Origin: Comamonas sp. | Lineage (GTDB): Bacteria; Pseudomonadota; Gammaproteobacteria; Burkholderiales; Burkholderiaceae_C | Assembly (NCBI RefSeq): GCF_009360615.1 | Contig: NZ_SPEY01000086.1 | Span: 1-64,000 of the forward strand | Reading direction: 5' to 3' | DNA: 64,000 nucleotides | Program-made: the position numbers and the translations under genes | Shown: positions 33,388-46,959 of the stretch, one piece after another | Numbering within the stretch: position 1 is the stretch's first letter | Layout: every line of letters begins with the position of its first letter | The notes under the pieces: generated by a model | Told to the model about the DNA's origin: nothing | Seen by the model: only the letters and a program-made list of their open reading frames with translations | Databases searched by the model: none

Positions 33388-35697
33388 TCAGGCGGGTTGG
33401 TTCGGCTGACCGACCGGGGACGTGGCATTCAGCACGGCGCGCACCGCATCGGGTGTGAACGGGGCTGCATAGAAGCGCCGGCCCGTGGCATCGAACAAGG
33501 CATTGGCCAGGGCCGCAGGTCCTGGCACCGAGGCCGATTCTCCTGCACCCAGGGGCGGCTCCTCCTGGCGCGGCATCAGCACCACTTCGATGACCGGCAG
33601 GTCGCGGAACCCGATGATGGGGTAGCCGCCCCATTCGCGGCTGGCCACGCCATGGTCGCTGAAGGCCACCTTTTCCATCAGGCTTCGGCTCAGCGTCTGT
33701 ATGACGTTGCCGTGGATCTGGTGGCGCACGCCGTCGGGGTTGACCATCATTCCCGTGTCCTGGCCCACGACCACCTGTTGCACGGCAATGCGCCCGCTGG
33801 CGGGATCCACGGTGATGTCGATGACCCAGGCGGCCCAGGCCGCGCCGAAGCCGGGAAAGCGGCTGTGGATGTAGCGCGCATAGGCCACGCCGCGGCCGTG
33901 CAGCAGCCCGTCGGCATCGGGTTGGCCCCGGCTCCCGCAATGCCCTGGCTGCCAGTGCGCATGGCGGGCCGTGGCGTGGATCAGTTCGACGGCGCGTGGA
34001 TCGTCCAGGTGGCGAACACGGTAGTCCACGGGATCGGCTTCGGCCGCATGGGCCAGCTCGTCGATCATGCAGTCGTGGGCGAAGGAATTGGGCAGGGCCG
34101 AGACGCCGCGCAGCCAGGACGCGCGCACGATGGGTGCCATGTCATGACAGGCGATGCGCTGATGGGCATAGCGGTAGGGCGGCACGGCCGTGCGGTCGCC
34201 CATCTCCAGTGTGCGTGGCTGGCCTGGCAAGCGGCCGGTGAGCAGCAGGGCCAGCAGCGGCGCGTCGTTGGAGGGGTAGCGTACGTCAAAGTCATAGGCC
34301 AGCAGCGCACCCCGGGCGTCGATGGCCGCGCTCACGTCCATGAGCTGGGCCGTGCCCTTGGGCTCCCACTGGTGTTCCTGCTCGCGCGTGAGCTGCACGC
34401 GCACGGGGGCGCCCACGGCCATGGACAGCAGGGCGGCGTCGGCGCAGACATCGTCGGCACAGTTCCGTCCATAGCAGCCTGCGGCTTCCAGGCGCACGAT
34501 CTCGATGCGCTCTTCGCCCAGTTGCAGCAGCCGGTCCAGGTCGGTGCGCAGCATGTGTGGGTTCTGCGTGCCGGCCCAGAGCTTGAGCCGATCCTCGTTG
34601 AAATCGGCCACGGCGCAGGAGGGGCCAATGGAGGCATGCATCTGGTAGGGCCAGACATAGCTGCGGTGCAGCCGGGTGGCCGCGCCGGCAAAGGCGTCAT
34701 CCACGGGCCCCTGATCCACCAGTGCGCGGTGCCGGGCGGGATGGGTGCGGATGGCAGCGGTCAGGTCGGACAGATCGGGCGCGGCGGGCACGGCCCTCCA
34801 GTGCACGCGTAGTGCGCGCATGGCGGCAATGGCCTGCTCTTCGCGATCGGCGACCACGCCGACGAAGTCGCCCTCGATCACCACCTGCACCTTGCCGGGC
34901 AGGTGGGCCACGGAGTCCCGGTCCACGGACACCAGGCAGCGACCGATGAAGTCGCCGCTGTCGCGGCCCGGATGCGGCGGGCGGATCACGCGGCCATGGC
35001 GCATGCCGGGCACGCGCACATCATGGACAAAGCTGAGTTCGCCCGTGGCCTTGGCGGGAATGTCCATGCGTGCCGCGCCCTGGCCCACCAGCCGGTAGTC
35101 GCTCGCAGGCTTGAGCTTGACCTCCTGCTCGGGTGGGGCCAGTTGCAGCTGCAGTTGCTTGCCTCGCAGCAGCTCTCCATAGCCGATTTGGCGGGCATCG
35201 CTGCCGTCGGCAAAGCGCACAATGCCGTCGCTTGCCCGGAGTTGGTCCGCCCTCGCGCTCCATCGCTGCGCGGCCATTGCCAGCAACTGCTCGCGCGCCT
35301 GGGCGGCGGCGCGTCGCAGCGGAATGGCCGAGATCTGGATGCTGGCGCTGGCAATGGTCGGCCCCTGGTTAGGGGCGGCGGCCGTGTGGCCCAGCACCAT
35401 GTCCAGGTGCTCCAGCGGCACTTCGAGCTCCTCCGCCACGATCTGCGCCAGCGCCGTGCGGATGCCCGTGCCCAGATCCACATGTCCATTGAAGGCCAGG
35501 GCGCGCCAGCCCAGCGGGGCATCTTCGTCGGCCAGCACGGCGACGAAGATTTCGGGGGTGGACTGCACATAGTCGGTGGCCGTGCCGGGCTGGCCGGGAG
35601 CGGGGCGCGGCGGTGCCACCGGCTGGCGCACCACGAGCAGGGTGTCGGCGCGCGTGAGCAGCTGTGTGTGCTGGGTTTGGGGCTGGGGCAGGGTCAT
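33388..35697 (-). CDS. Nicotinate dehydrogenase, molybdopterin-binding catalytic subunit
   Basis: 769 residues, xanthine-dehydrogenase-type molybdenum subunit. The full set of cofactor motifs is visible: AFNGHVDLGTGIRTAL near residue 67, GCYGRNCADD near 415, RASWLRGVSALPNSFAHDCMIDELA, and LGAGESASVPGP with the expected catalytic Glu near 720. It should hydroxylate nicotinate at C6, with NicA and the cytochrome-bearing NicB passing electrons on. No signal peptide. Last gene of nicE-nicD-nicX-nicF, 205 bases after nicF with a repeat copy between. In Pseudomonas putida this domain is part of NicB. Confidence 0.85.
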   Translation of the reverse strand: MTLPQPQTQHTQLLTRADTLLVVRQPVAPPRPAPGQPGTATDYVQSTPEIFVAVLADEDAPLGWRALAFNGHVDLGTGIRTALAQIVAEELEVPLEHLDMVLGHTAAAPNQGPTIASASIQISAIPLRRAAAQAREQLLAMAAQRWSARADQLRASDGIVRFADGSDARQIGYGELLRGKQLQLQLAPPEQEVKLKPASDYRLVGQGAARMDIPAKATGELSFVHDVRVPGMRHGRVIRPPHPGRDSGDFIGRCLVSVDRDSVAHLPGKVQVVIEGDFVGVVADREEQAIAAMRALRVHWRAVPAAPDLSDLTAAIRTHPARHRALVDQGPVDDAFAGAATRLHRSYVWPYQMHASIGPSCAVADFNEDRLKLWAGTQNPHMLRTDLDRLLQLGEERIEIVRLEAAGCYGRNCADDVCADAALLSMAVGAPVRVQLTREQEHQWEPKGTAQLMDVSAAIDARGALLAYDFDVRYPSNDAPLLALLLTGRLPGQPRTLEMGDRTAVPPYRYAHQRIACHDMAPIVRASWLRGVSALPNSFAHDCMIDELAHAAEADPVDYRVRHLDDPRAVELIHATARHAHWQPGHCGSRGQPDADGLLHGRGVAYARYIHSRFPGFGAAWAAWVIDITVDPASGRIAVQQVVVGQDTGMMVNPDGVRHQIHGNVIQTLSRSLMEKVAFSDHGVASREWGGYPIIGFRDLPVIEVVLMPRQEEPPLGAGESASVPGPAALANALFDATGRRFYAAPFTPDAVRAVLNATSPVGQPNQPA

Positions 35698-35902: not shown

Positions 35903-36586
35903 TCAGTTTGCCGGGACGTCGGTTTCGGAGAGGGCCTGGCAAAGCGGCATCACGGCGGCATACTTCTGTGCCATGTCGAACAGGTTGGCTTCGTGCGGGC
36001 CCAGTGCGCGGTCGCCGCAGCAGTCGGCCACTACCAGCGGGCGAAAGCCCGACTGCATGGCATCGACCACGCTGGCGCGCACGCAGCCGCTGGTGACGCA
36101 ACCGGCCACCACCAGGGTCTGCACGCCGCGCTGGGCCAGCCAGGGCGCGAGCATGGTGCCGAAGAAGGCCGATGGCGTGCTCTTGCGCACCACATATTCG
36201 CCCGGGGCCGGCGCCAGCTGGGGCACGATGGCGCTGGCAGGGCTGTCTTCCTTGAGGGTCAGCATGCCGGGCACCTTCAGGCAGAAGATGTTGTGGTCGG
36301 CGTCATCGTCGGAGAAAACGATTCGGCTGTGCGCCACGGGCCAGCCGCGCTCGCGCGCATGGGCCAGCAGGTGCTGCGTCTGCGCGATCGCCTCGGGGAT
36401 GTTGCCGCCGCCGAAGACGGCCGGGTCGGCGAAGCCGTTGACGAAGTCGATGATGAGCAGGCCGAACGGTGCCTTCAGCGGCAGCGGCGTGCCGAAGCCC
36501 TGGCGTGCATAGGCGGAGATGTCTCCCTGCGCACCCCCGGTCGGGATGCTCTGGGCGCCGGTGGCCGGCAAGGTGGTGGTTGTCAT
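35903..36586 (-). CDS. nicF: Maleamate amidohydrolase
   Basis: 227 residues, isochorismatase-like Cys hydrolase. The triad is visible: Asp47 in LLIIDFVNGF, Lys135 in VVRKSTPSAFFGT and Cys168 in AGCVTSGCVRASVVDAM. NicF removes ammonia from maleamate to give maleate. The ATG at 36586 overlaps the nicX stop (ATGA), which fixes the start and shows coupling; an upstream open frame exists but is shadow sequence of nicX. Followed by a repeat copy abutting its stop codon. Confidence 0.93.
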   Translation of the reverse strand: MTTTTLPATGAQSIPTGGAQGDISAYARQGFGTPLPLKAPFGLLIIDFVNGFADPAVFGGGNIPEAIAQTQHLLAHARERGWPVAHSRIVFSDDDADHNIFCLKVPGMLTLKEDSPASAIVPQLAPAPGEYVVRKSTPSAFFGTMLAPWLAQRGVQTLVVAGCVTSGCVRASVVDAMQSGFRPLVVADCCGDRALGPHEANLFDMAQKYAAVMPLCQALSETDVPAN

Positions 36587-37668
36587 GCGATGTCCTTTCC
36601 TGGCTTGGACCGTTTGGCGGCGCGCGCCAGTCCTTCTTCGTCCTGCACCACGCCGTGGATGACTGTGGGCTTGTCGTCCAGTGCCACCGTGCAGTGGCGC
36701 ATGGGAATGTCGATGTGGCAGGCCGTGGTGCGGCTGCCGCCGGCCTCGTTGTTGGGGCCCATGGACCACAGGAAGTTGCCCTCGAAGGCGCGGGCGTCCA
36801 TGCCGATGTGCGTTTCCTTGTCGTAGTGGGCCAGCATGGACCAGTGGGCGCGCGGCTGCAGCCCCCAGCCGATGTGGGACACGGCATAGGCCTCGGGATC
36901 TTCGTAGGAGGCCATGTACTCCTTGAGGATGTCGGCCTGCAGGCCGCCGTGGATGCGCGTGACATAGCCCTTCTCGATGACGAGCTCGATGGGGTCGGTC
37001 ACGTAGTCCTTCATGGGCAGGAGGATGTCGCCCCGGTCCAGCACCACGCGGCCGTTGCTCTCGCCTTCGTCGGGCCAGGTCAGCACGAAGCCGCTGGGCC
37101 AGTGGTCCCAGCGGCCGGGCCGGTCCACGAAGCCGTATTCGCAGATGGCCGGGAAGCTGCCGATCCGGCAGCGCAGGTCGGTTCCCGCGGTCGAGGTGAT
37201 GTGCATCTGGCTGGCGGCCTCGATCAACCTGGACGCGGCCTGCACGCGTGCGCGGTCGCCCTCGGTGGGCACCAGTCGGCACAGCACCTCGGGCGGCTCC
37301 ACGGCCAGCAGGATCTTGGTGCCGGTCTGCAGGATCTCGTGCTGCTCCGGCGAGAACAGCAAGGTCATCAGGTCCAGTACCAGGTCGCTGGCCTTGAGCG
37401 CGGCGATGGCGGCGGGGTTGCCGGTCAGCGGCGTCGTGCCCAGGTAGGCCAGCGAGTCGCGGCTCAGGGATTTTTCGGCGTTGACGGGCGGCAGGTCCAG
37501 GCGATTGACGCGCGCGCCCATCTCACTGGAGGCGGCGATGGCGCAGCGCAGCGTCTGCGGGTGTGTGTCGGCGCCTGTGAGCACGGTGACGGTCTGGCCG
37601 GCTTCGAGACGGGACAGCGTAAGCACCTGCTTCCAGGCGTGGATCAGATCGATATCGCTGACGGACAT
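36583..37668 (-). CDS. nicX: 2,5-dihydroxypyridine 5,6-dioxygenase
   Basis: 361 residues, an extradiol-like iron enzyme of the aminopeptidase M29-like fold. It opens the ring of 2,5-dihydroxypyridine with O2, giving N-formylmaleamate. GSFPAICEYGFVDRPGRWDHW and the C-terminal TTACHIDIPMRHCTV hold the likely iron ligands (Glu and a His-x-Asp pair). The ATG at 37668 has AAGGAG 6 bases upstream. It lies 50 bases after nicD and overlaps nicF by 4 bases. Confidence 0.95.
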   Translation of the reverse strand: MSVSDIDLIHAWKQVLTLSRLEAGQTVTVLTGADTHPQTLRCAIAASSEMGARVNRLDLPPVNAEKSLSRDSLAYLGTTPLTGNPAAIAALKASDLVLDLMTLLFSPEQHEILQTGTKILLAVEPPEVLCRLVPTEGDRARVQAASRLIEAASQMHITSTAGTDLRCRIGSFPAICEYGFVDRPGRWDHWPSGFVLTWPDEGESNGRVVLDRGDILLPMKDYVTDPIELVIEKGYVTRIHGGLQADILKEYMASYEDPEAYAVSHIGWGLQPRAHWSMLAHYDKETHIGMDARAFEGNFLWSMGPNNEAGGSRTTACHIDIPMRHCTVALDDKPTVIHGVVQDEEGLARAAKRSKPGKDIA

Positions 37669-37718: not shown

Positions 37719-38564
37719 TCAGTCCACCCGTGCACCCAGGAAATCGCCCAGGGCCTCATAGAACCCGGCCTCGTTGTCCCAGGGAATCATGTGGCCGGCA
37801 CCGGGCACGCGCACGTGCTCGGTCTGGGGTGCCAGGCCCTGCCACTCGGCCACGTCCTCGCCGCGTACCACGTCGCCGCGCTCGGCAGTGACCAGCAGCA
37901 GCGGGTGCGGGATGTGGGGCAGGTCGGCATGGATGTCGTCGCGGCCGAAGTCCTCGAAGCTCTGCACGATGGCCGGCTCGTGGCAGGTGTGCAGCCATTG
38001 GGCGCGCAACTGGCGCTGCTCTTCGGTCCAGGTGGGGCAGAAGGCACGCATGGCCTCCGCATCCATGCCCAGCGTGGCCTGGCGGATGGAGTCCACATAC
38101 CAGGGCAGGGCGGCCGGGTAGGCGCGGCGGCCCGGGCCGGACACCGGTGGATCGACGATGACCAGGCGCGTGAGCCCGGCCGGCTGGCTGCGCGCAGCGC
38201 GCACGGCAATGCGCCCGCCCATGGAGTGGCCGATCAGCGCCCAGCGCTGAAGGCCTAGCGCCTGGGCGAAGGCGGTCACGTCGGCCGCCTGGGCATCGAG
38301 GCTGTAGTCCAGGCCGGGGCCGGAGGATGAGAGGCCGCGCCCGCGCACGTCGAGCACATAGGTGTCGAACTGGAAGCCCAACTGCTCGGCCACGAAGCCC
38401 CAGGTCACGGCTGGGCTGGTAATGCCGGGAATCAGGATGACGGCGTCGCGCTGCGCGCGTTCGCCCTCGGTGCCGCCGTAGCGCAGGTAGTGCTGGCGGA
38501 TGCCGTTGGCGTGGACGTTGCCGCCGTAGCGGAATGTGCTGGGGGGGCTGGAGTGGCGGGTCAT
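37719..38564 (-). CDS. nicD: N-formylmaleamate deformylase
   Basis: 281 residues, alpha/beta-hydrolase. Nucleophile elbow LIGHSMGGRIAVRAARS (Ser114); the catalytic His is in VPGAGHMIPWDN near the end, and the acid is probably in the preceding strand. NicD hydrolyses N-formylmaleamate to formate and maleamate, so it is the formate source for the adjoining formate dehydrogenase. The start MTRHSSPPSTFRYGG at 38564 lies 11 bases after the nicE stop. Confidence 0.93.
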   Translation of the reverse strand: MTRHSSPPSTFRYGGNVHANGIRQHYLRYGGTEGERAQRDAVILIPGITSPAVTWGFVAEQLGFQFDTYVLDVRGRGLSSSGPGLDYSLDAQAADVTAFAQALGLQRWALIGHSMGGRIAVRAARSQPAGLTRLVIVDPPVSGPGRRAYPAALPWYVDSIRQATLGMDAEAMRAFCPTWTEEQRQLRAQWLHTCHEPAIVQSFEDFGRDDIHADLPHIPHPLLLVTAERGDVVRGEDVAEWQGLAPQTEHVRVPGAGHMIPWDNEAGFYEALGDFLGARVD

Positions 38565-38575
38565 GCGTGTGTTCC

Positions 38576-39364
38576 TCAGGCCTTGGCCGCAATGTTGCGG
38601 CTGTCGTAGGGGTAGGCGCCCGACAGCAGCGCGCCCGCGCCCGGCACCACGGGGTCCAGCCCCAGTTCCTTGAGGATGGCATAGGTGGTGGCGATGGAGG
38701 CGGTCAGCACGGGCTTGCCGGTCTGGGCCTCGACCTGGGCCACGGCCGGCAGCGAGGGCATCTGCACGCAGGCCGACAGCACGATCACGTCGGCGTCGGC
38801 GTAGTTCATGCCGGCCACGATGCCGGGCAGCTTGGCAGGATCGTGGCGGCCCACATCCAGGTTGTCGGGGATTTCCAGCGCGCGCCAGTCCACGATCTCG
38901 AAGCCTTCGGCGGCCACGTAGTCCATGACCAGCCGGGTCAGCGGAATCATGTAGGGCGCCACCAGGGCGATCTTCTTGGCACCCATCACCTTGAGCGCCT
39001 CCACCAGCGCGCCGGCACTGGTGATCACCGGGGCCGTGGCACCGTTGCTGGCCGTGCGCTCGGTCAGGCGCTGCTGCGAGACGCGGTGATAGCCCTTGCC
39101 CATGGCCATGATGGCTACCAGGCAGGCGTAGCCCAGCACGTCCACGCGTGCGTCGCTCAGCTCCAGCGCACAGCGGTCGCTTTCGGCGTCCATCGCGGCC
39201 AGCTCTTCCTTTTGCACCTTCTTCATGCGCATGCGGCTGGAGTGGAAGGTGAAGCGGTCTTGCGGACGCAGCGTGGAGTGGGCCTGCAGCATGGCCGGTA
39301 CTTCGGTCTCCATGGTGGTGTTGGAGCTGGGGACGATCTGGCCGATGCGGAATGTGTGGGTCAT
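38576..39364 (-). CDS. nicE: Maleate cis-trans isomerase
   Basis: 262 residues, Asp/Glu racemase superfamily. The two catalytic cysteines are in LGYACLVAIMAMGKGYH (about Cys81) and VLSACVQMPSLP (about Cys199); IGQIVPSSNTTMETE is the conserved N-terminal binding loop. NicE converts maleate to fumarate, which enters the TCA cycle. First gene of the left-hand nic operon. The ATG at 39364 has AAAGG 9 bases upstream. Confidence 0.95.
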   Translation of the reverse strand: MTHTFRIGQIVPSSNTTMETEVPAMLQAHSTLRPQDRFTFHSSRMRMKKVQKEELAAMDAESDRCALELSDARVDVLGYACLVAIMAMGKGYHRVSQQRLTERTASNGATAPVITSAGALVEALKVMGAKKIALVAPYMIPLTRLVMDYVAAEGFEIVDWRALEIPDNLDVGRHDPAKLPGIVAGMNYADADVIVLSACVQMPSLPAVAQVEAQTGKPVLTASIATTYAILKELGLDPVVPGAGALLSGAYPYDSRNIAAKA

Positions 39365-40845
<1,481 letters not shown>

Positions 40846-40937: not shown

Positions 40938-41495
40938 ATGGAAATCCCCGTCCACTCAAGCAGTCTTACCCACCGTATTCCCCTGCAGGTCAACGCTCGC
41001 GCATGCGAGGTGCCGGCTGCTCCAGGGACGGCGCTGCTGCATGTGCTGCGCAATGATCTGGAGCTGAACGGGCCCAAGTACGGCTGCGGCCTGGGCGAGT
41101 GCGGTGCCTGCACGGTGCTCATCGATGGCGTGGCCGCGCGTTCCTGCGTGATTCCCGTGAAGGCGGTTGTGGGTCGCGAAGTGACCACGCTGGAAGGTCT
41201 GGGCTCGCGCCAGTGCCCGGGTCCCACGCAGCAGGCCTTCATCGACTGCCAGGCAGCCCAGTGCGGCTACTGCCTCAACGGCATGATCATGACGGTGGAG
41301 GCCCTGCTGCGGCGCAACCCGAATCCTTCGGAACAGGATCTGCGCAACGAGCTGCACCACAACCTGTGCCGATGCGGCACGCATGTGGAAATCATGCAGG
41401 CCGCCCTGCGCGCCGTGCAGCTGCGGGCGCAAGCCGCCGCACTGCAGGCACCCTCCGGTTTTCCATCTTCCAGCGCGGGCGAGGTCCAGCCATGA
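40938..41495 (+). CDS. nicA: Nicotinate dehydrogenase, [2Fe-2S] subunit
   Basis: 185 residues. The plant-type ferredoxin half carries YGCGLGECGACTVLIDG with a fourth Cys after it; the C-terminal helical half carries AQCGYCLNGMIM and HNLCRCGTH for the second cluster, as in all small subunits of the xanthine dehydrogenase family. It passes electrons from the Mo centre to the cytochrome domains of NicB. About 10 residues longer at each end than the shortest relatives. The ATG at 40938 (with AAGAG 9 bases upstream) is preferred to a TTG at 40920. Overlaps nicB by ATGA. Confidence 0.93.
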   Translation: MEIPVHSSSLTHRIPLQVNARACEVPAAPGTALLHVLRNDLELNGPKYGCGLGECGACTVLIDGVAARSCVIPVKAVVGREVTTLEGLGSRQCPGPTQQAFIDCQAAQCGYCLNGMIMTVEALLRRNPNPSEQDLRNELHHNLCRCGTHVEIMQAALRAVQLRAQAAALQAPSGFPSSSAGEVQP

Positions 41496-44455
41496 GCCCG
41501 GCCGGCAATACCCCCGCCCTGCCTTCCGACCTGCTGCACGGCCTGGCGCTGCGCCCGCCCGTCGCGGCCTGGGACGGCTTGCGCTACCAGGGCAGCGTGC
41601 CCACGCGGGCCCGGCTGGAGCAGGCACAGGCCATGGCCGGAGTGGTGGCCGCCGTGCAGCGCGAACATTTTCTGGGCGTGGTGGCCGTGGCACCCGTGCA
41701 TGCGCGGCAGGCCGTGGCCGGTCTGGCGCCTGACTGGCAGGGCGGTCACGGAGCCTTGTCGGAACGCTCCGTCTCTCGCCGCCCCGAGTCGTCCGAGACC
41801 GGTCGCTATGTCTGGCGCATGGCGGGTGCGGGCGCAGGGTCCGCTGGTGCTGCGCGTGTCGCCGCCTGGTGCCTCGACGGCCATGCCAGCGTCTGGCTTC
41901 CGGCCTGTGACGTCGGTGTGCGCCACATGATCGGCCGCGAGCTGGCCGCACTGCTGCAATGCCCCGAGTCCGCGCTGCGGCTGTGGAGTCTCCCTGCCAC
42001 GGCGGCATGCACGGTGCACGCGCTGGATCTCATGGATGCGGCTGCCGATGCGGCCCTGTTGTCCCTTGCCGTGGGCCGGCCTGTCAGCGTGGCCTGCGAG
42101 ACCGCGGTGATCGACGCTGCGGACTGTCGCGATCTGGTGCTGCGCATGGATGCACAGCCTTCGCAGGCACAGGAAGCCGGCACGTCGATGCAGGCCCATG
42201 CAGGTCAGGCGCTGGCGCAGTCCGACGTGCTGCTGTCCGAATTCCCCTGGGCCGTGCGCCCCAGCATGGCGCGTTTGCTGAGCCAGCCCGGGATGGCGCG
42301 CGCCGCCGCCCAGGCCACCGTGCTCGATGCCGGTCAGGTGCGGGAGCGCAAGCCACTGTCAGGCCTGCGCCATGCCGCTGTCGATGATCTGAATGCCGCC
42401 CAGGTATTTGCCTGTGAAAGCCATTGGCATGAGCAGGCCCTGGTGCAGGGACGTGACCCGCTGCAGTGGCGTCTGCAAAACCTGCCCGAAGGCCCGGTGC
42501 GCGATCTCGCGCGGCAGGTGGCCGAGCAGGCACAGGCATCGCAGCAGGCGCCGTCCCGCCAGAGCGCCGATGGACGTCTGCTGGGCCAGGGCTTTGCCGT
42601 TGCCCAGTTGCAGACCCTCGATGCGCAGGGCGACTGCCTCCATGCCTGGAGCGCCTGGGTGGCCGAAGTGGCGGTGCATCCCCTCACCGGCGAGATCGAA
42701 GTGACCCGCGTGGTGGCCGGTCATGACAGCCGCAGCCTGCAGCCTGCGCAGGCCGCCAGCGCGCGGCCCGAGATCCTGCAGCAGGACCCGCACCTGCTGG
42801 CCGATGCGCGCCGGCTGCTGGGATCGGCTCCCGCCTTCGACGACTGGGGGGGAGCCTCCGGCTCCGTCGGTGCTTGCGGTGTGATCGCCAGGCCAGACTC
42901 CGACCTGGCGCAGCAGGTGCAAGGCGATGCCGCACCCATCCGCCAGGGCGACCTGGCGCTGGACGGCGTGGCCACGCTGCCCGCCGCAGCCGCCATTGCC
43001 AACGCCATTCACCATGCGACAGGCGTGCGCCTGCGCGAAGTACCCTTTCAGCCCGAGCGATTGCGCCTGGCGTTGTCGGGCGAGGGCGTGGGCAAGTCCC
43101 GCGACGCAAAACCCGGTCGCGGATGGGGCTGGCTGGCTGCAGGCGTTGCAGGACTTGCCGGGATGGCTGCCATGGCCTGGCCACTGAAGCCGGCCCTTCC
43201 GCTGACAGACGGGCCCGATGTCTCCCTCTACTCGCCCCAGGCCCTGGAGCGCGGCCGCCTGGTGGCCGCCGCAGGGGATTGCGTGGTCTGCCACACGGCA
43301 CCGGGTGGGGCCTCCAATGCAGGAGGCCTGGGTCTGGAGACTCCGTTCGGCACCATCTATTCCACCAACATCACGCCCGACAACGAAACCGGCATCGGCC
43401 GCTGGTCCTACGCGGCCTTCGAGCGGGCCATGCGCCACGGCGTTCACCAGGATGGACGCCAGCTGTATCCGGCATTCCCTTATACGGCGTTCGCCAAGCT
43501 CAGCGAGAGCGACCTGCAGGCCCTGTATGGCTACCTGATGTCCCAGCCCGCCGTGACGGCCAGGGCCCCCGAGACGCAACTGGCCTTTCCCTACAACCTG
43601 CGCCCGGCCATGGCCGGCTGGAACCTGCTTTTCCACGATGCCACGCCTTTCAAGGCCGACCCCGCGCGCAGTGCCGAATGGAACCGGGGCGCATATCTGG
43701 TCGAGGGTGCGGGCCATTGCGCAGCCTGCCACTCGCCGCGCAATGCGCTGGGTGCCGAAAGAAAGGGCATTCACTATCTGGGCGGCGGCGAGGCCGAAGG
43801 CTGGACCGCACCCGCGCTCAACCAGCTCGGTGCCGGCAAGCGCCCCTGGAGCCGCGAGGAGCTTTACCAGTACCTGCGCACAGGCTTCTCGGCCCGCCAC
43901 GGCGTGGCGGCGGGGCCCATGGCACCCGTCATCCATGGCCTGGCCCAGTTGCCCGAATCCGATGTGCGCGCCATGGCCACCTATCTGATGGCGCAGCCGG
44001 GCCCGGCTGCACGGGATGCGCATCCCGTGGCAGTCAATGATGGACCGGCCCAGGCAGCCCCCCTCGCTCCATTGACTGCCGTGGCGCCCGCGTCCGCCAG
44101 GCGTCTGCAGCGCCATATCGCTGGCGAGCGCATCTACCAGAACGCCTGTGCGGCCTGCCACGAGGCAGGCAGCGGGCCTACGTTGTTCGGCGTCAAGCCG
44201 CTGCTGGACCTGAACACCAGCCTGCATGCCGCCAGTCCGGACAACCTGCTCCAGGTCATTCTGAACGGCATCCAGGCTCCAGCCGACGATGCCCTGGGTT
44301 ACATGCCCGGCTTCAGGGACAGCCTGGACGACAGGCAGATTGCGGACCTGCTCGGATATTTGCGTGAACGATTTGCACCGGAGGAAAAAGCTTGGCCAGA
44401 CGATACGAAGAGGATTAACCGGCTGCGCGCGCGGATGCAGGCGCATGCGCCCTAG
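41492..44455 (+). CDS. nicB: Nicotinate dehydrogenase, triheme cytochrome c subunit with degenerate Mo-domain
   Basis: 987 residues. Residues ~1-535 resemble the molybdenum subunit of xanthine dehydrogenase-type enzymes but are shortened: the GHVDLGTG segment is absent, the GCYGRN region reads AACTVHALDL, and the LGAGES loop with the catalytic Glu reads RQGDLALDG, though the surrounding AIANAIHHATG is kept. A membrane anchor (GWLAAGVAGLAGMAAMAW, about 545) leads to three CxxCH haem sites (Cys597, Cys743, Cys886). It probably docks the enzyme to the membrane and delivers electrons to the respiratory chain, while the separate 769-residue subunit is catalytic. Translationally coupled to nicA. 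Confidence 0.85.
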   Translation: MSPAGNTPALPSDLLHGLALRPPVAAWDGLRYQGSVPTRARLEQAQAMAGVVAAVQREHFLGVVAVAPVHARQAVAGLAPDWQGGHGALSERSVSRRPESSETGRYVWRMAGAGAGSAGAARVAAWCLDGHASVWLPACDVGVRHMIGRELAALLQCPESALRLWSLPATAACTVHALDLMDAAADAALLSLAVGRPVSVACETAVIDAADCRDLVLRMDAQPSQAQEAGTSMQAHAGQALAQSDVLLSEFPWAVRPSMARLLSQPGMARAAAQATVLDAGQVRERKPLSGLRHAAVDDLNAAQVFACESHWHEQALVQGRDPLQWRLQNLPEGPVRDLARQVAEQAQASQQAPSRQSADGRLLGQGFAVAQLQTLDAQGDCLHAWSAWVAEVAVHPLTGEIEVTRVVAGHDSRSLQPAQAASARPEILQQDPHLLADARRLLGSAPAFDDWGGASGSVGACGVIARPDSDLAQQVQGDAAPIRQGDLALDGVATLPAAAAIANAIHHATGVRLREVPFQPERLRLALSGEGVGKSRDAKPGRGWGWLAAGVAGLAGMAAMAWPLKPALPLTDGPDVSLYSPQALERGRLVAAAGDCVVCHTAPGGASNAGGLGLETPFGTIYSTNITPDNETGIGRWSYAAFERAMRHGVHQDGRQLYPAFPYTAFAKLSESDLQALYGYLMSQPAVTARAPETQLAFPYNLRPAMAGWNLLFHDATPFKADPARSAEWNRGAYLVEGAGHCAACHSPRNALGAERKGIHYLGGGEAEGWTAPALNQLGAGKRPWSREELYQYLRTGFSARHGVAAGPMAPVIHGLAQLPESDVRAMATYLMAQPGPAARDAHPVAVNDGPAQAAPLAPLTAVAPASARRLQRHIAGERIYQNACAACHEAGSGPTLFGVKPLLDLNTSLHAASPDNLLQVILNGIQAPADDALGYMPGFRDSLDDRQIADLLGYLRERFAPEEKAWPDDTKRINRLRARMQAHAP

Positions 44456-44796: not shown

Positions 44797-46113
44797 ATGT
44801 CATCTACATACATTTCAGTGGAAAAAGGCATCCAGACTGCGGGTGTGGGCAAGTTCCAGTACCGGCTGTTCGTGATCTTCGGCCTGGTCTGGCTGGCGGA
44901 TGCCATGCAGGTGCTGTCGATTGGTTTCAGCGCGCCATCCATTGCCAAGACCTTCGGCAAGACCGTGCCCGAGGCGCTGCAGACCGGCACCTTCTTCTTC
45001 ATCGGCATGCTGATCGGTGCCTTCGTCTTCGGCAGACTGGCCGATCGCATAGGGCGCCGCCCGGTGCTGATGATGGCCGTGGTGATCGATGCCTTTGCGG
45101 GAGTGGCTTCGGCCTTTGCGCCCGAGTTTGCCTGGCTGCTGGTGCTTCGCTTCATCACGGGCATCGGCGTGGGAGGCACGCTGCCCGTGGACTACACCAT
45201 GATGGCCGAGTTCCTGCCCAGCGACCGGCGAGGCCGCTGGCTGGTGCTGCTGGAGTCGTTCTGGGCCGTGGGTACGATCTTCCTGGCCATTTTGGCGCTG
45301 GTGGCCGTCAACTGGGGCGACGATGCCTGGCGCGTGATCTTCTTCGTGACCGGACTGCCGGCGCTGATCGGCGTGGTGCTGCGTTTCTACATCCCCGAAT
45401 CTCCCATGTACCTGAACCGTAACGGCAAGTCCGAAGAGGCGCGCAAGGTGCTGCAACGGGTGGCCAAGGTCAACGGAGCCTCGTCCGACATCCCGGCCCT
45501 GCAGCCCGAGAAGCAGGAGCGCAAGTCCCTGCTCGCACTGTTCTCGCAAGACCTGCGACGTCGCAGTGTCTCGCTGTTCCTGGCCTGGGCGCTGATCTCC
45601 ATTGCCTACTACGGCGTCTTCGTCTACCTTCCCGTCAAGCTCAGCAGCGAAGGCTTTGCCTTCATGCGCGGCCAGGTCTTCCTGGTGGTGCTGGCGCTGG
45701 TGCAATTGCCCGGCTTTGCGCTGTCGGCCTATGGCGTGGAGCGCTGGGGCCGCAAGCCCACGCTGATCGGCTTTCTGTTGCTCAGTGCCGTGGGCTGCAT
45801 GCTTTACAGCCTGGGATCGTCGCCGTTCGTGGTGATCGGATCGACGCTGCTGATGAGCTTCTCTCTGCTGGGCACCTGGGGTGCGCTGTATGCCTTCACG
45901 CCGGAGGTCTACCCGACCGACCTGCGCGCCAGCGGCATGGGCATGGCAGGTGCCGTGGCGCGCTTCGGCGGCCTGTTTGCCCCGGCCATCATCGCGCCCA
46001 TCATGGCCACACACTTCACCTGGGCCCTGGCGGTGCTGTCTGCCATGCTGGTGGGCGGTGCGCTGTCGATCTGGGCCGTGGATGTGGAATCGCGCAACCG
46101 GGCGCTGGATTGA
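44797..46113 (+). CDS. nicT: MFS transporter, probable nicotinate uptake
   Basis: 438 residues, 12 membrane segments, sugar-porter/NiaP-like branch of the major facilitator superfamily. GRLADRIGRRPVL after helix 2 and the YIPESPMYLNRNG loop before the central cytoplasmic part are family signatures; ERWGRKPTLIG repeats the loop motif in the second half, and YAFTPEVYPTDLRASGMGMAGAVAR is typical. Position within the nic cluster makes nicotinate (or 6-hydroxynicotinate) the likely substrate. AAGGAG lies 6-7 bases before the ATG. Ends at a strong terminator. Confidence 0.88.
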   Translation: MSSTYISVEKGIQTAGVGKFQYRLFVIFGLVWLADAMQVLSIGFSAPSIAKTFGKTVPEALQTGTFFFIGMLIGAFVFGRLADRIGRRPVLMMAVVIDAFAGVASAFAPEFAWLLVLRFITGIGVGGTLPVDYTMMAEFLPSDRRGRWLVLLESFWAVGTIFLAILALVAVNWGDDAWRVIFFVTGLPALIGVVLRFYIPESPMYLNRNGKSEEARKVLQRVAKVNGASSDIPALQPEKQERKSLLALFSQDLRRRSVSLFLAWALISIAYYGVFVYLPVKLSSEGFAFMRGQVFLVVLALVQLPGFALSAYGVERWGRKPTLIGFLLLSAVGCMLYSLGSSPFVVIGSTLLMSFSLLGTWGALYAFTPEVYPTDLRASGMGMAGAVARFGGLFAPAIIAPIMATHFTWALAVLSAMLVGGALSIWAVDVESRNRALD

Positions 46114-46206: not shown

Positions 46207-46671
46207 TCAATCCGCCTCGCCACCTTCCAGCATCTTCTTGAGCAGAAAATCCAGCGCCAGGCGCTCGGCCGGATTGAGCTTGCCGTAGGTGCTTTCGGTG
46301 ATCTGCTTGGCGAAGGGTTCCATGTCGCGCACCAGGTCCTGGCCGGCCTGCGTGAGGTTGATGACGACCTTGCGCCGGTCGATGCGGTCATGGTCCACCT
46401 GCACCAGTTCGCGCTGCTTGAGCCGGTCCACCACGCCGCGAATGGTAGCCTGGTCGATCACCGTGGCCTTCACGATGTCGGCCAGCGAGCTGCCCCGGTT
46501 GTCGCGCACCGAGCACAGCACCACGAACTGTGCCGCCGTGAGCTGAGAGTCGGGTATGTACTGCTGAAAAAGCGCCGCATGCCGTTGATAGACGCGCCTT
46601 AGCAGGTGGCCGATCTGGTCCGAAAAGTGATAGCCATCCTGTGACGTCATGGCTGATGGCGGATGAATCAT
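46207..46671 (-). CDS. nicR: MarR-family repressor of nicotinate genes
   Basis: 154 residues from the ATG at 46671 (ATG at 46650 is an alternative). Winged helix-turn-helix: LTAAQFVVLCSVRDNRGSSLADIVKATVIDQATIRGVVDRL, then the wing VQVDHDRIDRRKVVINLT, flanked by dimerisation helices. In Pseudomonas putida NicR represses the catabolic genes and is released by 6-hydroxynicotinate; the same role is likely here. Convergent with nicT and divergent from the formate dehydrogenase operon across 288 bases, so it could also influence the latter. Confidence 0.88.
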   Translation of the reverse strand: MIHPPSAMTSQDGYHFSDQIGHLLRRVYQRHAALFQQYIPDSQLTAAQFVVLCSVRDNRGSSLADIVKATVIDQATIRGVVDRLKQRELVQVDHDRIDRRKVVINLTQAGQDLVRDMEPFAKQITESTYGKLNPAERLALDFLLKKMLEGGEAD

Positions 46672-46959
46672 GGTGCGCCTGAGCTTACCAAAAATCACGC
46701 CAGCCACCGTGATCTGGGACAAGCCAGGCATGCCTGCGAGACGCGGCAGTACTCCATCACGACAGCACCGGCGTCAGGGGCGATGGATCAGGGCGTGCAG
46801 GCAGACGGGCGTGGGCTTTGTGCTCATTTGCGGCTTGAATGGCGCAATCAGGAATATGAATTTGACGACATGCCGGACAGGGCTTGAAATGGCAGACGAG
46901 ACAGAGCGCCTGCGGATCGGACCGCGCCGCTTCCACAACGAAAGCCAGTTGGGACATCC
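46672..46959. promoter_or_regulatory. Divergent region between nicR and the fds operon
   Basis: 288 bases without a gene. TTGAAT at 46835 and TATGAA at 46855 are promoter-like but only 14 bases apart, and TTGACG at about 46861 has no good partner. No copy of the nic palindrome was seen. GGGA before the fds start serves as ribosome-binding site. Confidence 0.35.

Follow-up and report, generated by a model that had tools for sequence, protein, structure and literature searches.

The window analysed here is a 64,000-nucleotide stretch of Comamonas sp. DNA (contig NZ_SPEY01000086.1, positions 1 to 64,000, forward strand), and it carries a nic cluster. Within this cluster, a nicB2-like gene occupies 41492-44455 on the forward strand, with an ATG at 41492, a stop at 44455 and no stop inside. 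The encoded protein of 987 amino acids consists of a degenerate molybdenum (Mo) domain (residues 1-535, 41492..43096), followed by a probable membrane anchor and tri-haem cytochrome c part (residues 551-987, 43142..44452). The gene of a NicA-like [2Fe-2S] subunit of 185 amino acids (40938..41495, forward strand; Pfam Fer2 and Fer2_2 above cut-off) overlaps its start by 4 bases. The cluster also encodes an intact, NicB1-like Mo subunit of 769 amino acids on the reverse strand (33388..35697; MoCoBD_1 and MoCoBD_2 above cut-off), whose Glu720 codon lies at 33538..33540. The original prediction, made from the sequence alone, had named a gene with three cytochrome c domains and an intact Mo subunit bearing Glu720; the coordinates, frame, length and three CxxCH motifs of the former agree, and the latter is confirmed. 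We propose, with a probability of roughly 0.6, that these genes encode a three-subunit nicotinate dehydrogenase, in which the dead Mo domain docks a separate Mo/Fe-S pair onto a membrane tri-haem cytochrome.

Residues 14-529 of the 987-residue protein and residues 232-757 of the intact Mo subunit are 26% identical (BLASTP, E 6e-20), and a search within the same genome gave E 4.9e-15. Judged from these alignments, the N-terminal homology to Mo subunits, which had been predicted for about 535 residues, is not a matter of chance. Meanwhile, Pfam MoCoBD_2 scores only 15.3-16.6 bits on this protein against a cut-off of 27, and MoCoBD_1 gives no match, so residues 1-535 stay below both curated cut-offs and annotation easily overlooks the relationship.

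The intact subunit carries three motifs, GHVDLGTG at residues 71-78, GCYGRN at residue 407 and LGAGES, the Glu of which is residue 720. In the degenerate protein, the N-terminal unit of about 231 residues that bears GHVDLGTG in the intact subunit is absent. The domain had been described as shortened, and this can now be stated precisely, as residue 232 is the first of the intact subunit to be aligned. The large-subunit chain 8gy3_C is collinear with the intact subunit, and E. coli PaoC has the GHVDLGTG segment between the two others. Since this sub-family has the GHVDLGTG half of its second cofactor-binding domain at the N-terminus, what is lost is one unit. At the place of GCYGRN, the alignments show AACTVHALDL (residues 171-180, 42002..42031). 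RQGDLALDG (residues 484-492, 42941..42967) occupies the place of LGAGES with the catalytic Glu, and an ungapped anchor puts Gly at the Glu position. The framework around them is kept in the alignment, namely ADAALLSLAVGRPV (residues 185-198, 42044..42085) and AIANAIHHATG (residues 501-511, 42992..43024), and several columns of ADAALLSLAVGRPV are near-invariant in intact Mo domains too. All four strings had been named beforehand, and all were found.

Pseudomonas putida KT2440 represents a two-gene type, NicAB, with one fused NicB. Fused NicB proteins share with the 987-residue protein the order of Mo domain, anchor and three haem domains, and their cytochrome part is 48-60% identical to its own. 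They differ in that their Mo domain is complete and includes the N-terminal unit; all three motifs occur in 36/36 intact proteins with three haems. Together with 21 haem-free frames, the motifs are complete in 57/57 intact Mo domains, a count that includes near-duplicates, the second set on contig C70 described below and L056 (a fused gene truncated where its contig stops), and excludes L010 and short partial matches. In contrast, the catalytic-Glu motif is found in 0/21 degenerate proteins, the window included. A GCYGRN-type motif is absent from the 20/20 that could be tested, L023 being cut and therefore excluded, and the N-terminal GHVDLGTG unit is absent from the 18/18 with upstream sequence (L018, L020 and L023 start at a contig end). 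The degeneracy is thus wider than had been claimed, as each cofactor motif is gone from all those of the 21 proteins in which it could be tested. GxGE-like strings lie in the haem part of 12 degenerate proteins, and L132 has one extra in the linker before the first haem.

The loss is selective at the level of single columns. The intact rows define 204 near-invariant columns (48 or more of 49 rows). Of these, 72 persist in 12 or more of the 14 degenerate rows, and 64 persist in none. Q352, C408, N412 and R530 are each kept in 0/14. We take the lost columns to be those that hold the pterin and the catalytic Glu, as in the xanthine-oxidase family. Glu720 sits in the same motif as the PaoC Glu, and its catalytic role is presumed here from that family. 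By gapped alignment, the E720 column holds Glu in one degenerate row of 14 (L102). Counting back without gaps from a conserved Asn, Glu stands at this position in 50/50 intact rows that fit the expression, to which 7 of the 57 did not, and in 1/21 degenerate proteins (L132). We considered a wrong start codon that would have hidden the N-terminal unit, and rejected it: the stop-to-stop frames, with their upstream extension, have no match to intact residues 1-225 (thresholds E 1e-5 and 1e-4), a real test for the 18 proteins with upstream sequence. The cofactor motifs and catalytic Glu that mark the xanthine-oxidase family are lacking in the window protein and in all testable relatives. Cofactor binding by the dead domain is not to be expected.

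A weak hydrophobic segment at about residues 547-565 (43130..43186; hydropathy peak 1.44) is probably the membrane anchor before the haem domains, and fused NicB proteins have a similar segment at the same place. The cytochrome subunit of the Gluconobacter aldehyde dehydrogenase (8gy3_A) matches residues 551-984 with E 2.7e-92. Three Pfam cytochrome c stretches are present, and the haem motifs are CVVCH at residue 597 (43280..43294), CAACH at residue 743 (43718..43732) and CAACH at residue 886 (44147..44161). By its three CxxCH domains and this homology, the protein belongs to the tri-haem membrane cytochrome c subunits, like those of 8gy3 and of fructose and alcohol dehydrogenases.

At 18/18 assessable degenerate loci, the nic cluster also contains the gene of a complete Mo subunit; at L018, L020 and L023, the contig ends before the partner could be assessed. 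Seven of the 18 (genomes G661, G1054, G1120, G1048, G1068, G990 and G940) were picked with a second match already visible, so the unbiased count is 11/11. Each of 10 fused-NicB loci has a single frame matching the Mo subunit. Fused genes also lie in nic-type clusters, at L104 (with nicC, nicE, nicD, nicX and nicF) and at L138 (with nicX and MarR). The 19.5 kb and 8 kb read there, respectively, show no second Mo gene. In the loci read, there is accordingly one working Mo domain per cluster, which is either fused or separate with a dead one on the cytochrome.

For the dead domain, the ratio of nonsynonymous to synonymous substitution rates (dN/dS; Nei-Gojobori script) lies at 0.23-0.39 over 8 pairs with sequences in common. 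In the same pairs the haem part gives 0.10-0.18, and the intact subunit gives 0.11-0.20 in 3 pairs. These values indicate that purifying selection keeps the dead domain in the pairs tested, under weaker constraint. A decaying pseudogene is ruled out by the unbroken reading frame and a dN/dS well under 1.

On this basis we infer the docking role and the electron path as follows. The complex would consist of NicA, in which two [2Fe-2S] clusters are expected, the separate intact Mo subunit and the membrane tri-haem cytochrome. The Mo site of the separate subunit would hydroxylate nicotinate, and electrons would pass from there to the NicA clusters and on to the haems. The dead domain would hold the working Mo/Fe-S pair at the membrane, and it may have been kept because the ancestral Mo-domain surfaces toward NicA and the cytochrome persist. 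Neither NicA nor the intact Mo subunit shows a signal sequence by eye, so we suggest that both are cytoplasmic. As the dead domain comes before the anchor, it would lie on the same side as the NicA/Mo pair, with the haems on the opposite side. Nicotinate as the substrate is suggested by the gene cluster.

The same genome has another gene set of this enzyme type on contig C70 (locus L036, C70:27000-38578). It comprises an Fe-S subunit, a Mo subunit and, as a separate protein, a cytochrome that belongs to the same family and has no Mo-like domain. With start codons chosen here, its subunits have 20.9, 82.4 and 46.1 kDa, and its Mo subunit carries a TRRQLLK signal similar to those of twin-arginine translocation (Tat). 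The contrast between the two sets, a Tat-like signal and no dead domain in one, agrees with docking, as far as one paralogue and signals read by eye can tell.

We also asked how the domain might fold. An AlphaFold model from 12 degenerate rows reached a predicted local distance difference test score (pLDDT) of 46.9 and a predicted template modelling score (pTM) of 0.35. It has five matches in the PDB below E 0.001, all of them Mo subunits of this family, with low TM-scores of 0.17-0.26 (best match, E 4.2e-07 and TM-score 0.23). Adding 49 intact rows, to 63 in total, raised the mean pLDDT to 73.1 and the pTM to 0.72, with 8gy3_C as the best match (E 8.6e-17, and a TM-score of 0.37 that is again low). 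Residues 223-241 and 446-491, the latter running into the area of the lost Glu motif, have a pLDDT below 50 in both models.

Several observations weigh against the docking proposal. The C70 set demonstrates that such a cytochrome can do without the domain. Constraint on the dead domain is about half that on the haem part, and pieces of the domain are gone from L135 and L136, which together suggest that part of the domain is dispensable. In genome G150 (L113, C25:5500-25000), an intact Mo subunit lies beside nicX and has no degenerate partner; a NicA orthologue, the degenerate protein and cytochrome matches are all absent from this 98% complete genome, so the partners were either lost or fall in an assembly gap. 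The model from degenerate rows alone is poor, the 63-row model was built with intact rows and is hence not independent of the intact family, and both are models of single chains. Regarding descent, the degenerate rows may also group with the separate Mo subunits, a placement that the test does not reject (p-AU 0.094, from a quick tree), and the cytochrome tree requires three changes of the degenerate label, at least two of them forced by starred branches.

Another account of the domain starts from the dimeric enzymes of the xanthine-oxidase family, in which two Mo subunits pair. The dead domain could be a structural stand-in for the second protomer that pairs with the intact Mo subunit, in which case only the shape of the complex would depend on it. 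That residues 14-529 are homologous to the intact subunit fits, as does the keeping of framework columns while cofactor columns are lost, but L135 and L136 lack parts of the domain. We consider this account unlikely, if still worth attention.

It is doubtful, too, that the domain is a relic with no function in itself, in which selection maintains nothing beyond folding and a link to the haem part. The weaker constraint and the long stretches predicted to be unstructured are what a relic would show, and 11/12 degenerate rows depart from the tree model in their letter make-up. Yet the domain is recognisable at 27-78% identity to the window protein, and some 20-residue stretches are well kept in 10 divergent rows: 501-520 at 0.78, 181-200 at 0.76, 301-340 at 0.62-0.64 and 61-80 at 0.60. 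Moreover, a free cytochrome subunit is an available state, as C70 illustrates. These comparisons are to be read with the makeup of the set, which proteins without any trace of the domain could not enter.

We regard as improbable a new role of the domain, for example as a sensor or in docking a factor that inserts the cofactor during maturation. Some conserved degenerate residues differ from the intact consensus (for example E309, S310, S387, R406 and R515), but some of them occur in intact relatives of the same alignment. Lastly, the domain could still hold a cofactor that a part of another subunit completes in trans, as in the split Mo subunits of 3hrd, a nicotinate dehydrogenase with large and medium molybdopterin subunits (chains A and B), and L132 has Glu at the anchor position while L102 and L132 keep a GRHCGDD segment; but the motif counts, a Glu position that is not Glu in 20/21, and an N-terminal piece matched only inside intact Mo genes, at 8 loci (L102, L103 and L131-L136), make this hardly credible.

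Returning to the docking proposal, we put forward a wider form of it tentatively. The pseudo-Mo domain might be an obligatory adaptor across several proteobacterial families, with the cytoplasmic hydroxylase on the inner face, the haems outside and electron transfer across the membrane, which would be an undescribed arrangement.

In the trees, from which near-identical rows were omitted, the separate intact Mo subunits form one group (89/91). The degenerate domains form another, weakly joined to the fused ones (SH 83 and 86). The intact subunit ends shortly past a PFTP region, which in fused NicB precedes the anchor. We infer that, in the simplest account, a fused NicB ancestor was duplicated and the copies were truncated at opposite ends; the trees leave the number of such events unsettled. 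A comparison of separate with fused intact Mo domains lists six group-specific positions. The N-terminus LTRADTLLVVR of the intact subunit at 33388-35697 and LTRADFHAAxGVLLVVR of several fused NicB proteins can be aligned with TRRQLLKAGGMLMV, the Tat-like stretch in the Mo subunit from C70. Going by this resemblance, the LTRAD-type N-termini of the intact Mo subunit and fused NicB may be the relic of an export signal.

The tripartite NicA/NicB1/NicB2 is already named in print. In passages of PMC4572682, the Delftia acidovorans Cs1-4 cluster is listed as marR, nicT, nicB2, nicA, nicC, nicE, nicD, nicX, nicF and nicB1, the same gene set and order as in the window. Passages of PMC10269826 mention a tripartite nicotinate enzyme for Burkholderia gladioli and Bordetella. 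The window protein is NicB2-like by its position, as its gene stands beside nicA and the nic cluster includes another Mo gene. The available parts of the Delftia, Burkholderia and Bordetella texts call NicB2 nicotinate dehydrogenase subunit B and NicB1 aldehyde dehydrogenase, and these parts do not mention a dead Mo domain. The literature searched contains no description of this domain, but it did not cover the primary KT2440, Bordetella and JA1 papers, which may note it. Searches for papers about the Gluconobacter structure, about pseudoenzymes in this family and about NicB cytochromes gave no hits. Passages of PMC8322953 and PMC5484106 hold no subunit data.

The original prediction had linked the genes to a three-subunit enzyme of Comamonas testosteroni and considered the gene set possibly known. 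The set is indeed known elsewhere, as NicA/NicB1/NicB2, but probably not as the C. testosteroni enzyme. According to the review PMC10331938, the NdhSLM nicotinate dehydrogenase of strain JA1 has three subunits, encoded by three genes, of 21, 82 and 46 kDa, the third being called a flavoprotein. The subunits of the window set have 19.5 (Fe-S), 83.2 (Mo) and 104.0 kDa (cytochrome), so the first two are near in size, whereas 104.0 kDa stands against 46 kDa for the third. The genes in the window are also not contiguous, as the Mo gene lies on the opposite strand, some 5 kb away from that of the Fe-S subunit. The identity of the window set with the published JA1 enzyme was rejected because the subunit sizes disagree. 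Judged by size, the C70 set probably fits the JA1 description better. Loci PD0815-13 are given as orthologues of the JA1 enzyme in the part of the C. testosteroni KF-1 genome paper at hand.

Among enzymes of known structure, the membrane-bound aldehyde dehydrogenase of Gluconobacter oxydans (8gy3) is a close relative, with a cytochrome homologous to residues 551-984 and a large subunit collinear with the intact Mo subunit. Its cytochrome chain has 444 residues, too short for an additional dead domain. A functional parallel is NuoG of respiratory complex I, in which a domain from molybdopterin enzymes has lost its cofactor and is structural. The dead domain would work alike; it differs in superfamily, since NuoG belongs to the dimethyl sulfoxide (DMSO) reductase superfamily and the window protein to the xanthine-oxidase family.

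The remaining genes of the cluster are consistent with nicotinate degradation. On the forward strand, a nicC-like gene of a flavin adenine dinucleotide (FAD) monooxygenase lies at 39625..40845 (Pfam FAD_binding_3, and its cluster place as given in passages of PMC4572682), and a nicT-like transporter gene of the major facilitator superfamily (MFS) lies at 44797..46113 (profile match). The reverse strand carries a nicE-like maleate isomerase candidate at 38576..39364 (Pfam Amdase and cluster place), a nicD-like alpha/beta hydrolase at 37719..38579 (profile match and cluster place), a nicF-like amidase of isochorismatase fold at 35903..36583 (Pfam Isochorismatase; start approximate) and a MarR regulator at 46207..46731 (profile match). 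The nicX-like protein at 36583..37668, also on the reverse strand, is the candidate for the ring-cleavage dioxygenase of the pathway and is named from its cluster place alone, as it has no Pfam or NCBIfam match at E 1e-5.

The degenerate form was found at nine loci of named relatives, including Delftia tsuruhatensis, D. acidovorans, Paracidovorax wautersii and Acidovorax, next to ten fused NicB loci and one lone cytochrome. At least 6 of 299 family genomes have it, the window's genome included (matches of at least 47% identity), and G752, from a wider family draw made with NicX, has it too. It was confirmed in G661 from the class sample and in G1054, G1120, G1048, G1068, G990 and G940 from the phylum sample of 398. 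In the phylum sample, loci were chosen by frame length or a visible second match, so that a degenerate protein with no partner could pass as fused. The architecture spans four family groups (f1, f172, f184 and f198). Weaker matches were not all fetched, and the occurrence counts are hence lower bounds. Distant relatives are less or differently degenerate, and traces of the second motif region survive in L102 and L132. A plasmid search matched 715 records, and in no record does the match extend over 80% of the 987-residue protein.

With these findings, the vague label 'subunit B' gives way to a case, open to testing, of a catalytic domain retained despite the loss of its active site; the degree of loss varies between bacteria (G661, G1120, G1048, G1068, G990 and G940). 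As nicB or nicB2 of such clusters is not Mo-catalytic, nicA and a nicB2-like gene alone are expected to miss the catalyst. In annotation, the catalyst is the gene labelled nicB1 or aldehyde dehydrogenase.

On the side of the fused proteins, six Acidovorax loci (L025, L027, L028, L030, L032 and L033) hold fused NicAB pairs with no nic pathway genes in the flanks examined. Their substrate may be other than nicotinate. The exceptions are L030 and L032, which have 27% matches to nicC in their flanks.

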